A stretch of DNA of 64,000 bases from Sphaerosporella brunnea (lineage: Eukaryota > Ascomycota > Pezizomycetes > Pezizales > Pyronemataceae): NCBI GenBank assembly GCA_008704415.1, contig VXIS01000079.1, forward strand, positions 62,001-126,000, written 5' to 3'. Positions 42,550-47,547 of this stretch are shown piece by piece. The stretch's first letter is position 1. The number at the start of each line of letters is the position of its first letter. Below the pieces are notes generated by a model, which had not been told where the DNA came from, did no database searches, and saw only the letters and a list, made by a program, of their open reading frames with translations. The translations under genes and the position numbers were made by a program.

Positions 42550-43162
42550 TTAAAACTTCAATACACGTTGGCCTTTTTCTAACTTGGCCTTGCTACCGCC
42601 GCCGTTTTTTTTCTTCCCATTTCTGCCGCCATTACTCTTGTTTCCTGGAGGAGGAGCAGGCGGAGGTACTCTTTCTCGTGCTACCGCTCTTTCTTCGTCT
42701 GCTATAGCCTTCGCAAAATGCCAATCCTTATGTTCCGCCTCATCACCGACGATATCTGCGTCGCAATCGGGGCAGTGGAAGGTTGATTCTTGGTAGAATG
42801 TCGCCGGCACACCCGGCGGATCTCCGCTCTGCAGCCGCTCGTCCGTCGCGGGCGGCTTCGCCGCAAAAAAGCGGCCGATGCCATTATAGACTTTCCGCCG
42901 CTTCTCTTCCACCGGCGGTGGCGGCGTCTCACTCACACGTTTTTGATTTGCAGCCGCTTGCACGGCTTGCTCCCCTTTCAGCAGGAATGCGCTGATCCCT
43001 TGGTTCCCTTCCTCCCTATCCTCTATGCCGCCGACTTGCAGGCTCATACCGGCACATGGCCACGCACCTGAATCCGCGGTTACGGTTTTGAGTAATCCTT
43101 CAGCAAGTTTTAGTAGGGCTTCCTTGTCGAGTTTGCCGGCGGGGGAGATCGTCAGCTGTTTA

Positions 43163-43204
43163 ACGTAAATCACGGGGAAGCGAGACATCCACTAGAAGCG
43201 AGAC
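43163..43204 (+). repeat. Left terminal inverted repeat of the pogo-like element
   Basis: This is a 42-bp repeat with the internal duplication aagcgagac-atccactag-aagcgagac. Its reverse strand supplies an ATG in frame with the 3' part of Pol eta. Confidence 0.93.
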
Positions 43205-43329
43205 AAGGTCTGTGCGGCTCGGCGTCCGTGCGCCCCCCCCCCCAAAAATGCGTCAATTACCCATCTACAAACAATCTGAAGATACCAAAAGAAAGAGAAA
43301 GAGAAGGAGAATCAACCCTGGTGGTGGTA

Positions 43330-45258
43330 TTAGCTATTGGCTGTTAGAGGGGTTGGTAGGAGGGTTACCTTCCGCGACCTTAGTTGCCTAGCCAGGGTAC
43401 TTGGACCCGCCGGTGTCGGGGACTCCATTCGATAGCGAGGGTTGTGTTCATCCTCAGAAGAGGATACAAGGGACTCATACTCATCTGAGGAGCTACTGAT
43501 AACGGGTTTGGGGGTTGCTGGGTCGGGGGTTGTTGCGGGTAAACCTTCAAATCTAACCGTTACACGAGACCTCCGGCCCTTACCCATCTTTGCTGCCGCT
43601 GCGGCCTTGTCTGCTGTCTTTTGAGCTGCCGCCTGCTTTTTCTCAGCGGCGGCGGCTGTGCGAGCTTGCTTCCTAGCCTCCTTTGCTGCCACCTCATCCT
43701 CCCTTTCCTTAATCTCCTCCACAATCTCTGTAGCAGTCAAAACCCCACTACGCTTCTCCTTACTAAACTGTCGCATGTCCTTTTTGGAAACTCGAACATT
43801 GCGCATGGACTCTCGTAGCTGACGCATTTGGTGGTTGGCGATGTCCGTCTGAACCAAAGCATACTCAGCACTGTGGGAAAAGCGGAGAATCAGGTTGCAG
43901 ATCTCCCCTTCACTAGCCTTCTTAACAAAATAGAGGGCTTGATTTGTCTGCTGGCGTAGTTCAAACTTGGTGTAAGGGGTTCGGTCAAGAGGAAAGGAAT
44001 TGTCTGACATCATCCTGTCTCTGGCGGCGGCGCGACTGATAGCGGTAGGGTTGTCTAGCTTGGAAAGGACGACACGGGCGTTGAGGGGTACAATGCCTGT
44101 ACACTCAAATGCAGAGGTAATATTTTCCAAGGTATATGCCTTCGCACGGGCACGTTTGTATAGCGGGAAGAAGGTATCACGGTTGATACCGACGGAGGTA
44201 ATGCGGAAGTAGTCTTCAACGGCCTTCTGGTAGTGGGTTTGCAGCTGACTAAACAGACCAACATCGAGCGGTTGTAGCAGATGAGTCGAATGAGCTGGAA
44301 GACAAAAAACCGTGATACCGTTCTGTTCGCAATATCTGAGGAAGGTGTAGTTGACATGGGATACATGTCCGTCGAGGATCAACAGTCGCTGCTTGCCAGG
44401 ACAACGTGCCTTGCTTACGGGGTCGTACACCTTAGTCAGCCAGTGCATCGCCATCTTGTTGTCCGTCCACCCCTTCTGTGACACTGCAAAACGTGCATCC
44501 CCATCGTCCGCATGCACATTTTTATACCAGTCAAAGCATTGTACTGCCCCCTTAGCGATAAGAAATGAAGGGAAGACAAAGCCATCTGCCGACACTGTTT
44601 CTAACGCTGTGATGAATTCTCGCTTGCCGTCTTGCTTGGAACGTGGATTCTTTTTGCCTCGCTTGGTGATGACTTTGGTTCGCTTTGCAACACCCATAAC
44701 AAAACCCTTTTCATCGACATTGGAAATAGCGTTGGGTTCGAACTTCTCGTCTCTCATAAGCTTGGCGAGCCGGCGGAAGTGTGTCTGGATGGTGTGGGGA
44801 TCCGAAGCTAGTGCCCGTTGTTTATCTAGCCGACTAGCGAACTTCGCCGCAAGAGAATCGTGACGGTTAAGGAAACGTGTTATCCAGTTCTTCCCAATGA
44901 CGTTCTTTTGATCCTTCTGCATTTGTACCTGTCGATTTTTGGGGTCTTTGGCCATCTCCACCACCAACCCCATTAGATGATCAATGCGTGCTGGAAACCC
45001 TAGTTCATCTAGCCTTTCCAACCACCTCACAATCGCTTTCTCGGCAGCAGGGGAGAATATTTGCTCCCCCTGATGTGCCTCCTGCCTTGGCCGCCTTCCG
45101 TTCCTTCTGTGGCCTAATGATGACTTTCTAACATCACATGCCTCGGCTGCCTGGCGTAGGGTCTGATAGGTACCGTCATCGAGCCCTTTCAGGGCCATCG
45201 CGTAACGTTCCTCGAGGTTTTTCTTGGTAATGGCACTTCGTTCCTTGACTTTAGGCAT
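43330..45258 (-). CDS. Pogo/Fot1-like transposase, full length
   Basis: This 642-residue transposase is in one open frame. Residues about 10-60 form a psq-like helix-turn-helix (YQTLRQAAEACDVRKSSLGH). Residues about 65-145 form a CENP-B/Tc5-type DNA-binding domain (NVIGKNWITRFLNRHDSLAA). The DDE_1 catalytic core shows D182 (SNVDEKGF), D296 (LLILDGHVSH) and D332 (LLQPLDVGLF), a DDD triad with 35 residues between the last two, typical of fungal pogo elements. The C-terminal part is Lys/Ala-rich (AAAEKKQAAAQ) with an acidic Ser tract (SSSSDEYESLVSSSEDE). No frameshift or stop is present and all three catalytic acids are kept, so the protein may be active. About 100 bases between the right repeat and the ATG would hold its promoter. 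Confidence 0.95.
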   Translation of the reverse strand: MPKVKERSAITKKNLEERYAMALKGLDDGTYQTLRQAAEACDVRKSSLGHRRNGRRPRQEAHQGEQIFSPAAEKAIVRWLERLDELGFPARIDHLMGLVVEMAKDPKNRQVQMQKDQKNVIGKNWITRFLNRHDSLAAKFASRLDKQRALASDPHTIQTHFRRLAKLMRDEKFEPNAISNVDEKGFVMGVAKRTKVITKRGKKNPRSKQDGKREFITALETVSADGFVFPSFLIAKGAVQCFDWYKNVHADDGDARFAVSQKGWTDNKMAMHWLTKVYDPVSKARCPGKQRLLILDGHVSHVNYTFLRYCEQNGITVFCLPAHSTHLLQPLDVGLFSQLQTHYQKAVEDYFRITSVGINRDTFFPLYKRARAKAYTLENITSAFECTGIVPLNARVVLSKLDNPTAISRAAARDRMMSDNSFPLDRTPYTKFELRQQTNQALYFVKKASEGEICNLILRFSHSAEYALVQTDIANHQMRQLRESMRNVRVSKKDMRQFSKEKRSGVLTATEIVEEIKEREDEVAAKEARKQARTAAAAEKKQAAAQKTADKAAAAAKMGKGRRSRVTVRFEGLPATTPDPATPKPVISSSSDEYESLVSSSEDEHNPRYRMESPTPAGPSTLARQLRSRKVTLLPTPLTANS

Positions 45259-45362
45259 ATTCGCGGTGGGCTGGGTGGTTGCGAACGGGTTGCGAGCGGG
45301 TTGTGGTTGGAATGCGGGGCTTTCACAGTGTCATATAGTCACGCTTTTTTTGCTTTTTTTGC

Positions 45363-45404
45363 GTCTCGCTTCTAGTGGATGTCTCGCTTCCCAGTGATCT
45401 ACGT
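45363..45404 (-). repeat. Right terminal inverted repeat of the pogo-like element
   Basis: This 42-bp repeat pairs with 43163-43204 with two mismatches. It lies directly inside the TA at 45405-45406 and contributes foreign codons to the truncated Pol eta frame. Confidence 0.93.
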
Positions 45405-46811
45405 TACTCCGTCCGCCACTCGCGGCTGTGAAATGCAAGGTTAATGTCTTTGGTCGCCTCCCCGGACCTTCGTCATCGAGACGCGAGCCGATGTCCGCAA
45501 TCAGCACTTGCAGCCATTCTTTTGCTGCTGCGAAGGCGGGGAGCGCCTGCCGGAATGATTTTGCTGAGAGGATGGATTTGATGGAGGACTTGGGGAGCAC
45601 GGGCGAGCGGTCGTGCCCGCGGAGGGTGTTGTACACCCACACTGCTGTGTCGTCTGCAAGCAGGGCTTGGAACTGGGGGAGTGTTACAGATAGGAGTTGT
45701 TGCAGTGAGGTGGTGTGGAAGTGGCTGGCGATTTGGGAGCCGAGTTTTCCGCCGAGGTTACGGACTGCTATTTGTCAGCTAGGCATGGGATAAAGGCGGG
45801 GGCCGGACTTTTGGTGAATTCGAAGGCGGAGAGGAAGGAAGTCGTCGCGCAGGGACGCACTACACTTTGTTGATTGGGCTTTTTGTACCCCGCCCCTAGC
45901 TTCGCCAGCATTTTGTTGGAGGCAATCCCCGCGGAACAGGTATATCCGAGTTGCTCGTATACCGCAGAGCGCAGGTTTTTGATGATGTCTGCCCCGATCG
46001 ACATCGCTATGTCGTCCCAGTCTATCTCCCCCTCTTCCCCCTCCTTGGCGGGGACAAGATGGCTCCCGCTCCACTCCAGCTCCTTTACCTCCGGTAGCGG
46101 AAGGAGCTCATCCCCGTGCTCCGACGTATTACGTAAACACTCATACTCCGTCAACAAACGCTCATAGCAATCCCTCGATAAATCCAGAAACGACTCATCG
46201 ATACTCGCCTTCTCTGTGTGCGCGTTTGGGCATAAATCTTGCAAGATCTTGAGGATTTTTTTGGATTCGGCACGGTACGGGTCTAGGCACGCTTTGCTGG
46301 TGTTTATGTCAGGGGGCGAGCCGGCGGGGCTGTAGGACCATGAAGAGCTGCCGGCGGACCAGGTGGCTACGTGTGCGAGGTAAATATTCGGACAGAGCTT
46401 TTTGGCTTCTGAAGCGGTCATGTGCCGCGTTACGCCTGCCGCGCGGCTGGGATAGTTTACAGCTATAAGGCCTGCCATGTAGGTAGGTGAGCATGAGAGG
46501 AGGGCCTGAGGTGGGGGAGAGGTACTCTGCCATTGCTGCACCGCCAGTGGCTGCTCCGGTGAGAGGCCGAGACGTTTGGTTTCACATTGTGCCTGGCATT
46601 ATGTTAGTTTTATATCTTGGTTCGAGAGGACGGACTTACGTAGAACGCATCTAAATCTCTATTACCAACAGCCATCCATCAGCTTTGGCTTTAGGGGAAG
46701 AGATGGGGAGACAAACACCAATGCTATTACTCGCAACGGGGAGTCGATAGAGTACTTTGACGGCTGTTGGAGATGGCGGTAGGTGAATTTGGACTTTCTG
46801 GGGGACTCCAT

Positions 46812-47059: not shown

Positions 47060-47208
47060 GAAGCCGGCGCCTTAGTTTGGGGGGCCTCGATAGGTGGTTT
47101 ATTCCACGAGGACAGGATTCGGGTTTTCTTTGTCCTGCATAGGCCTTGTTAGGCCTCGATCAGTGTATGAATTAAATAAATAAATAAATAAATAGAAGCC
47201 GGCGCCTT
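47060..47208. mobile_element. SINE-like retroposed insert with (AAAT)n tail and 14-bp duplication
   Basis: A 121-bp insert (47074-47194) is flanked by direct copies of gaagccggcgcctt (47060-47073 and 47195-47208). It ends in attaaat followed by aaat repeats just before the right copy. A simple-repeat 3' tail and a long target duplication are the marks of target-primed reverse transcription. The body contains gcctcgataggtgg and ggattcgggttt, which only loosely resemble Pol III A and B boxes, so a SINE or a truncated LINE end are both possible. Confidence 0.7.
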
Positions 47209-47330: not shown

Positions 47331-47547
47331 CATGAGACGAACAGAGGGAAGCCTGGCTGTCGAAGCACTGCCGTCCCAAGTCTTACTTCCGCCCCCGCAA
47401 GAAGCCCGATCCCACAGCCTACAAAAACAGAAAGGCCCTGGCAGCTCGTTTCTTTCAGCTGAGGCTTAACAAAGCCCTGACAGGTCCATACCTCCTAAAA
47501 ACAGGCCGTAAGATGGATGCTTAAACAAACAAACAAACATGAGACGA
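47331..47547 (+). mobile_element. 5'-truncated LINE 3' end with (AAAC)n tail
   Basis: The insert 47341-47537 lies between direct copies of catgagacga (47331-47340 and 47538-47547; the first base may belong to the tail). One open frame, 47342-47524, reads QREAWLSKHCRPKSYFRPRK, then NRKALAARFFQLRLNKALTG and PYLLKTGRKMDA, then a stop. This resembles the C-terminal end of fungal LINE (Tad1-type) reverse transcriptase proteins, just before the Cys-rich motif. The tail is aaacaaacaaacaaac. The frame is undamaged, so the insertion is recent. Confidence 0.8.

Follow-up and report, generated by a model that had tools for sequence, protein, structure and literature searches.

Fot1 of Fusarium oxysporum is a fungal pogo-type element that splits host genes and was found in a nitrate reductase gene. 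We describe a comparable arrangement, a fungal pogo-type element interrupting a host gene, in the cup fungus Sphaerosporella brunnea (strain Sb_GMNB300, Pezizomycetes), where the interrupted gene is RAD30, encoding DNA polymerase eta (Pol eta), which copies past sunlight-damaged DNA. The locus lies in a 64,000-nucleotide stretch (hereafter, the window; VXIS01000079.1, positions 62,001 to 126,000), which is part of contig C618 (155609 base pairs, bp). The closest described elements are those of the Fot family. In the excerpted text of PMC7386202, this family belongs to the pogo superfamily, itself placed in the IS630-Tc1-mariner group, and is characterized by DD35D spacing, a DDE_1 domain combined with helix-turn-helix (HTH) DNA binding, inverted repeats of 40-60 bp and a size of 1.2-5.2 kilobases (kb), with Pezizomycetes among its hosts. 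By the printed figures of the same text, TA target site duplications occur in 54 of 385 members of the family, all of them FotC or FotD, and most members have TAA. DD35D groups are also described in the accessible part of PMC7325037. The S. brunnea element shares the DD35D spacing, the DDE_1 and HTH domains, the repeat length and the size of the Fot family as excerpted, and differs from it in having the rarer TA duplication and not the usual TAA (PMC7386202). Judged from its sequence, it is a Fot-type pogo element by DD35D spacing, repeat length, domains and TA duplication.

We infer with high confidence that this element inserted recently at a TA in the only Pol eta gene found, and that the sequenced isolate would therefore be a natural Pol eta loss-of-function strain. 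The modelled gene, on the minus strand, begins with the ATG at 46811, ends with the stop codon at 42550 and has four GT-AG introns of 44-58 nucleotides. The Pfam families PF00817 (IMS) and PF21704 (Pol eta/Rev1 HhH) scored above cut-off in P0241, the public S. brunnea protein annotated as 'DNA polymerase eta-like protein', and the best relatives among solved structures were Pol eta. The element breaks the last exon within the little finger domain (IMS_C). Apart from it, the reading frame is open throughout, and the host flanks rejoin in frame over a single TA to give a Pol eta of 604 amino acids. The part of the gene beyond the element contains the UBZ finger (PF18439) and ends in a C-terminus that is conserved in the alignment, and which we take to be a PIP-like motif.

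The element is flanked by a TA at either end, and its two terminal inverted repeats agree in 40 of 42 bases, compared with a chance maximum of 25 of 42 among 200,000 random 42-mer pairs drawn from the window (Table 1). Its transposase reading frame is free of stops and has the same orientation as Pol eta. The DDE_1 domain (PF03184) is clearly above the Pfam cut-off (89.8 bits against 22), and HTH_Tnp_Tc5 (PF03221) passes it barely (22.3 bits against 22.2). Residues D182, D296 and D332, the latter two separated by 35 residues in DD35D spacing, are the putative catalytic triad as read from their motif context. Among the best 120 of 186 matches, the closest named transposase relatives came from Morchella sextelata (38% identity over 79%) and Choiromyces venosus (51% over 36%), and a match named for Fusarium oxysporum was 34% identical over 65%. 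No solved structure was related to the transposase by sequence at E 0.001, and Rfam gave no match anywhere in the window at gathering scores. The first-pass annotation had spanned the locus as 42550 to 46811, both ends of the modelled Pol eta gene. It had described a 2242-bp element with a TA duplication, 42-bp repeats and an undamaged 642-residue transposase, all of which proved correct to the base, and had located the hit in the little finger of a gene otherwise intact and joined in frame across one TA, as we also find. Its label of pogo/Fot1-like holds at the family level.

Table 1. Features of the interrupted Pol eta gene and of the inserted transposon (positions in the window).
Feature	Position	Strand	Remarks
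Complete Fot/pogo-type DNA transposon, 2242 bp, within Pol eta	43163..45404	-	Inverted repeats, TA on both sides
42-bp terminal inverted repeat on the side of the 3' Pol eta part	43163..43204		40/42 against the other end
42-bp terminal inverted repeat on the side of the 5' Pol eta part	45363..45404		40/42 against the other end
Target site duplication (TA), first copy	43161..43162		
Target site duplication (TA), second copy	45405..45406		
Transposase open reading frame, 642 amino acids, DDE_1 and HTH_Tnp_Tc5, DD35D	43330..45258	-	
5' part of Pol eta, residues 1-401 including the TA	45407..46811	-	Equals residues 1-401 of NCBI protein P0241
5' Pol eta exons	46811-46717, 46658-46640, 46592-46526, 46471-45809 and first part of last exon	-	
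24 codons from TA duplication and transposon end, predicted tail of truncated Pol eta	45334..45405	-	Stop at 45333-45331
3' part of Pol eta with the remaining little finger, the UBZ finger (PF18439) and the PIP-like C-terminus	42550..43160	-	Frame continues the 5' part
212-residue open reading frame, ATG in transposon end, in frame into Pol eta C-terminus	42550..43188	-	

The public protein P0241 has 425 amino acids, made up of 401 Pol eta residues and 24 residues encoded by the transposon end, and is identical to the predicted truncation down to the last residue. Missing from it are the UBZ finger, the PIP-like C-terminus and half of the little finger: its IMS_C match covers profile positions 2-52 of 109, compared with 2-104 in the intact Wilcoxina protein. 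The truncated product thus has no complete little finger, and the gene is an interrupted member of the Pol eta family. Among the 120 matches listed, out of 1964 that passed E 1e-40, P0241 is the one short protein, all 119 others having at least 599 amino acids, and by eye it is the only one without PF18439, which the other 119 contain. For such products, published mutants offer a guide. In the consulted portion of PMC8784325, Candida albicans Pol eta 1-512, which comprises the whole catalytic part, did not restore ultraviolet (UV) resistance in a complementation assay of the yeast rad30 deletion, and mutation of the PIP motif alone made yeast as UV sensitive as the deletion. The S. brunnea product resembles the Candida form in lacking the C-terminal part of Pol eta, and differs from it in being of natural origin and shorter in domains, since half of the little finger is also missing (PMC8784325, same portion). 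Because the product lacks more than either Candida 1-512 or the yeast PIP mutant, loss of function is expected and is the best reading of the truncation.

Searches of the assembly gave no second Pol eta; an IMS family profile found four matches at three loci. The other two loci are presumably Rev1 (C523) and Pol kappa (C90), named from motifs in their open reading frames. Nor did the assembly hold an empty-site contig, each Pol eta flank matching C618 only. The sequenced strain probably has no working Pol eta enzyme, and the lack of UV-lesion bypass that the first-pass annotation had raised as a possibility appears well founded, given that no second gene was found and that a longer Candida truncation fails in the excerpted results of PMC8784325. 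In the mechanism we propose, cut-and-paste transposition would have brought a full-length Fot-family (pogo superfamily) transposon to a TA of the last Pol eta exon. Translation would then enter the transposon end, add 24 codons and stop, and the resulting product, without half of the little finger, the UBZ finger and the PIP-like motif, would be unable to bypass UV lesions. The strain would have to lean on other bypass polymerases and on repair by photolyase and UV endonuclease. The genome contains one photolyase match and one match to a UvdE-type UV endonuclease (L050, G000:C120:34336-35238), the latter with one internal TAA that may reflect an intron or damage. With these other UV repair genes and the Rev1 and Pol kappa matches present, the rise in mutation rates suggested in the first-pass annotation would be no more than a possibility.

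The age of the insertion can be approached through other copies of the element. Besides the window copy, full-length copies lie on C224 and C467, and the pattern of the element ends (at most 3 mismatches) occurred at nine places on six contigs, compared with none for the reversed control. The C224 copy has 0 differences from the window copy over 2242 bp, whereas the C467 copy (2241 bp) differs by one homopolymer indel and seven substitutions, each of them a transition. Each of the three full-length copies has a TA on both sides and keeps the 642-residue frame, and their flanks are unrelated. Zero differences set a 95% upper bound of about 0.0007 changes per site and lineage (3/(2 x 2242)). More diverged relatives are present on C381 (75% identity), C329 (92% over 548 aligned bases), C632 (78%), C624 (79%) and C630 (83%), together with additional short pieces elsewhere in the genome, and DDE_1 matches occur at no fewer than 83 places. 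A metagenome protein (P0001, 588 amino acids, from a 2433-bp contig) is 99% identical to the transposase over 91%. The identical C224 copy and the open Pol eta frame support a recent insertion. Repeat-induced point mutation was considered as well and rejected: the C381 relative has no CpA-type signature, with C-to-T changes, counted from the window copy as the original state, at 55/240 CpG, 48/289 CpA/TpG and 91/589 other sites, and the full-length copies, three in all, hardly differ from one another.

Several observations weigh against a recent and complete loss. Identical copies could reflect polishing or gene conversion, and the N-terminal part of the protein carries an excess of changes specific to S. 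brunnea; the recent date given in the first-pass annotation is upheld by the identical copy and the open frame and carries these two cautions. The rates come from relative-rate counts of S. brunnea against Wilcoxina with six outgroups, for which 7 of the 119 other listed Pol eta proteins were used. In the N-terminal part, unique changes are more numerous in S. brunnea than in Wilcoxina with 6/6 outgroups, and the chi-square value exceeds 3.84 with two of them (Pyronema, 11.9; Tuber, 5.1), Choiromyces falling just under it (3.81). The threshold is passed with none of the six in the C-terminal part and with one for the whole protein (Pyronema, 9.5). At sites invariant in the other seven proteins, changes number 8/153 in S. 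brunnea, 2/147 in Wilcoxina, 10/155 in Geopyxis and 16/161 in Pyronema; the corresponding counts are 1/146 for Choiromyces, 2/147 for Tuber, 16/161 for Ascodesmis and 24/169 for Neurospora. This mild excess could reflect an older relaxation or merely faster evolution. In addition, the assembly comprises 640 contigs and 50,565,648 bases, compared with 872 and 51,598,955 in the consulted text of the genome paper, so that a piece could be missing. Finally, two in-frame splice routes across the element exist on paper.

These routes would allow the element to be removed from the Pol eta mRNA like an intron, with full-length or near-full-length Pol eta still being made, either with 11 extra codons or in near-normal form. 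Read along Pol eta, the upstream end of the element has a GT after its first two bases, in phase with the codons, and the last 45 element bases and the next 14 contain only two AG acceptors, both of them in frame. The first, which is preceded by a pyrimidine-rich run, is in the far repeat and leaves 33 nucleotides (11 codons), and the second is just past the element. The odds of both being in frame by chance are about 1 in 9. This donor is weak, yet three of the four native donors in the Pol eta model also depart from the usual consensus. Against such splicing, the resulting intron would measure 2.2 kb, compared with 44-58 nucleotides for the four native introns, and the public gene model P0241 does not bridge the element. 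We regard this outcome as improbable; if true, it would be a case of a pogo-type transposon partly masking its own damage as an intron.

A splice design general to Fot ends was examined separately at eight loci of other families and rejected. Inverted repeats were found at seven of them and not at L059. The ends TA-ACGTA are common to five of these seven, the Fot-like loci L052 (C168), L053 (C184), L054 (C619), L055 (C28) and L058 (C441); in four of the five, neither direction offers an AG within the final 45 bases, and in L058 one direction offers one. The ends of L056 and L057 are different and contain AGs. The copies on C184 and C619 also have flanking bases in common, pointing to a duplicated locus.

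Still less probable is that the split gene yields an N-terminal fragment and a separate C-terminal piece that are jointly part-functional. A 212-residue open reading frame does start in the transposon repeat in frame with the C-terminal part of Pol eta, but a frame match of this kind has a one-in-three chance, which counts against the idea, and the cut falls inside the little finger and splits a single domain. Least probable of all is a repeat misplaced into Pol eta during assembly: although the sequence is identical to the C224 copy, the TA duplication and in-frame flanks, the unrelated flanks of the other two copies, PacBio libraries of 10 kb able to span 2.2 kb and the presence of the junction in the NCBI model P0241 (derived from the same assembly) all speak against it. 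According to the consulted part of the genome paper, the DNA came from a single-spore culture and was sequenced from 10-kb PacBio libraries to a depth of about 908x; on these grounds, both misassembly and a hidden second nucleus with an empty site appear unlikely. Interruption of Pol eta by a recent Fot-family insertion remains our preferred reading.

The surroundings of the gene contain other insertions. A unit resembling a short interspersed nuclear element (SINE) lies at 47060-47208, 249 bp upstream of the Pol eta ATG; it has a (TAAA)n tail and is bounded by 14-bp direct repeats (47060-47073 and 47195-47208). The same unit occurs elsewhere at five places with 97-99% identity, at one as a partial copy (97%) and at two with 77%, and has no Rfam match. 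Direct repeats were seen by eye at two of four other copies (C636 and C457), and the C445 and C57 copies share bases upstream. A second, more diverged SINE-like insertion at 47331-47547 has an (AAAC)n tail, 10-bp direct repeats (47331-47340 and 47538-47547) and 22 other matches with 70-91% identity. The nearest named matches of the neighbouring myosin gene are from Pezizomycetes (Geopyxis, 87%; Morchella, 85%).

That such an element should interrupt a host gene is ordinary and well known, and the natural loss of Pol eta is of some interest. In the open-licence literature, as far as its text was available, we found no prior report of the S. brunnea Pol eta insertion under Sphaerosporella transposons, RAD30 insertions or repair-gene loss. 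The consulted parts of PMC8595933, PMC6528967 and PMC9097270 name no such insertion, and those of PMC8595933 are silent on Pezizomycetes. Hanseniaspora, as portrayed in the consulted sections of PMC6528967, likewise shows natural loss of repair genes in fungi; there the losses are old and affect many genes, whereas here one gene was probably hit by one recent insertion. The terms 'rad30' and 'polymerase eta' do not occur in the main text of PMC6528967.

For gene annotation, P0241 is a trap, as the public model finishes in transposon-coded residues. For the genome of S. brunnea, which excerpts of the genome paper describe as a cup fungus that forms ectomycorrhizas, is widespread and commonly occurs on truffle seedlings, the copies suggest that transposition has been recent. 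If our reading is true, the reference strain would be a natural Pol eta null, with relatives that keep the gene intact, such as Wilcoxina, available for comparison. It would then offer a wild strain for studying the extent to which Pol eta is needed in a soil fungus and whether mutations of the UV type build up in its absence.

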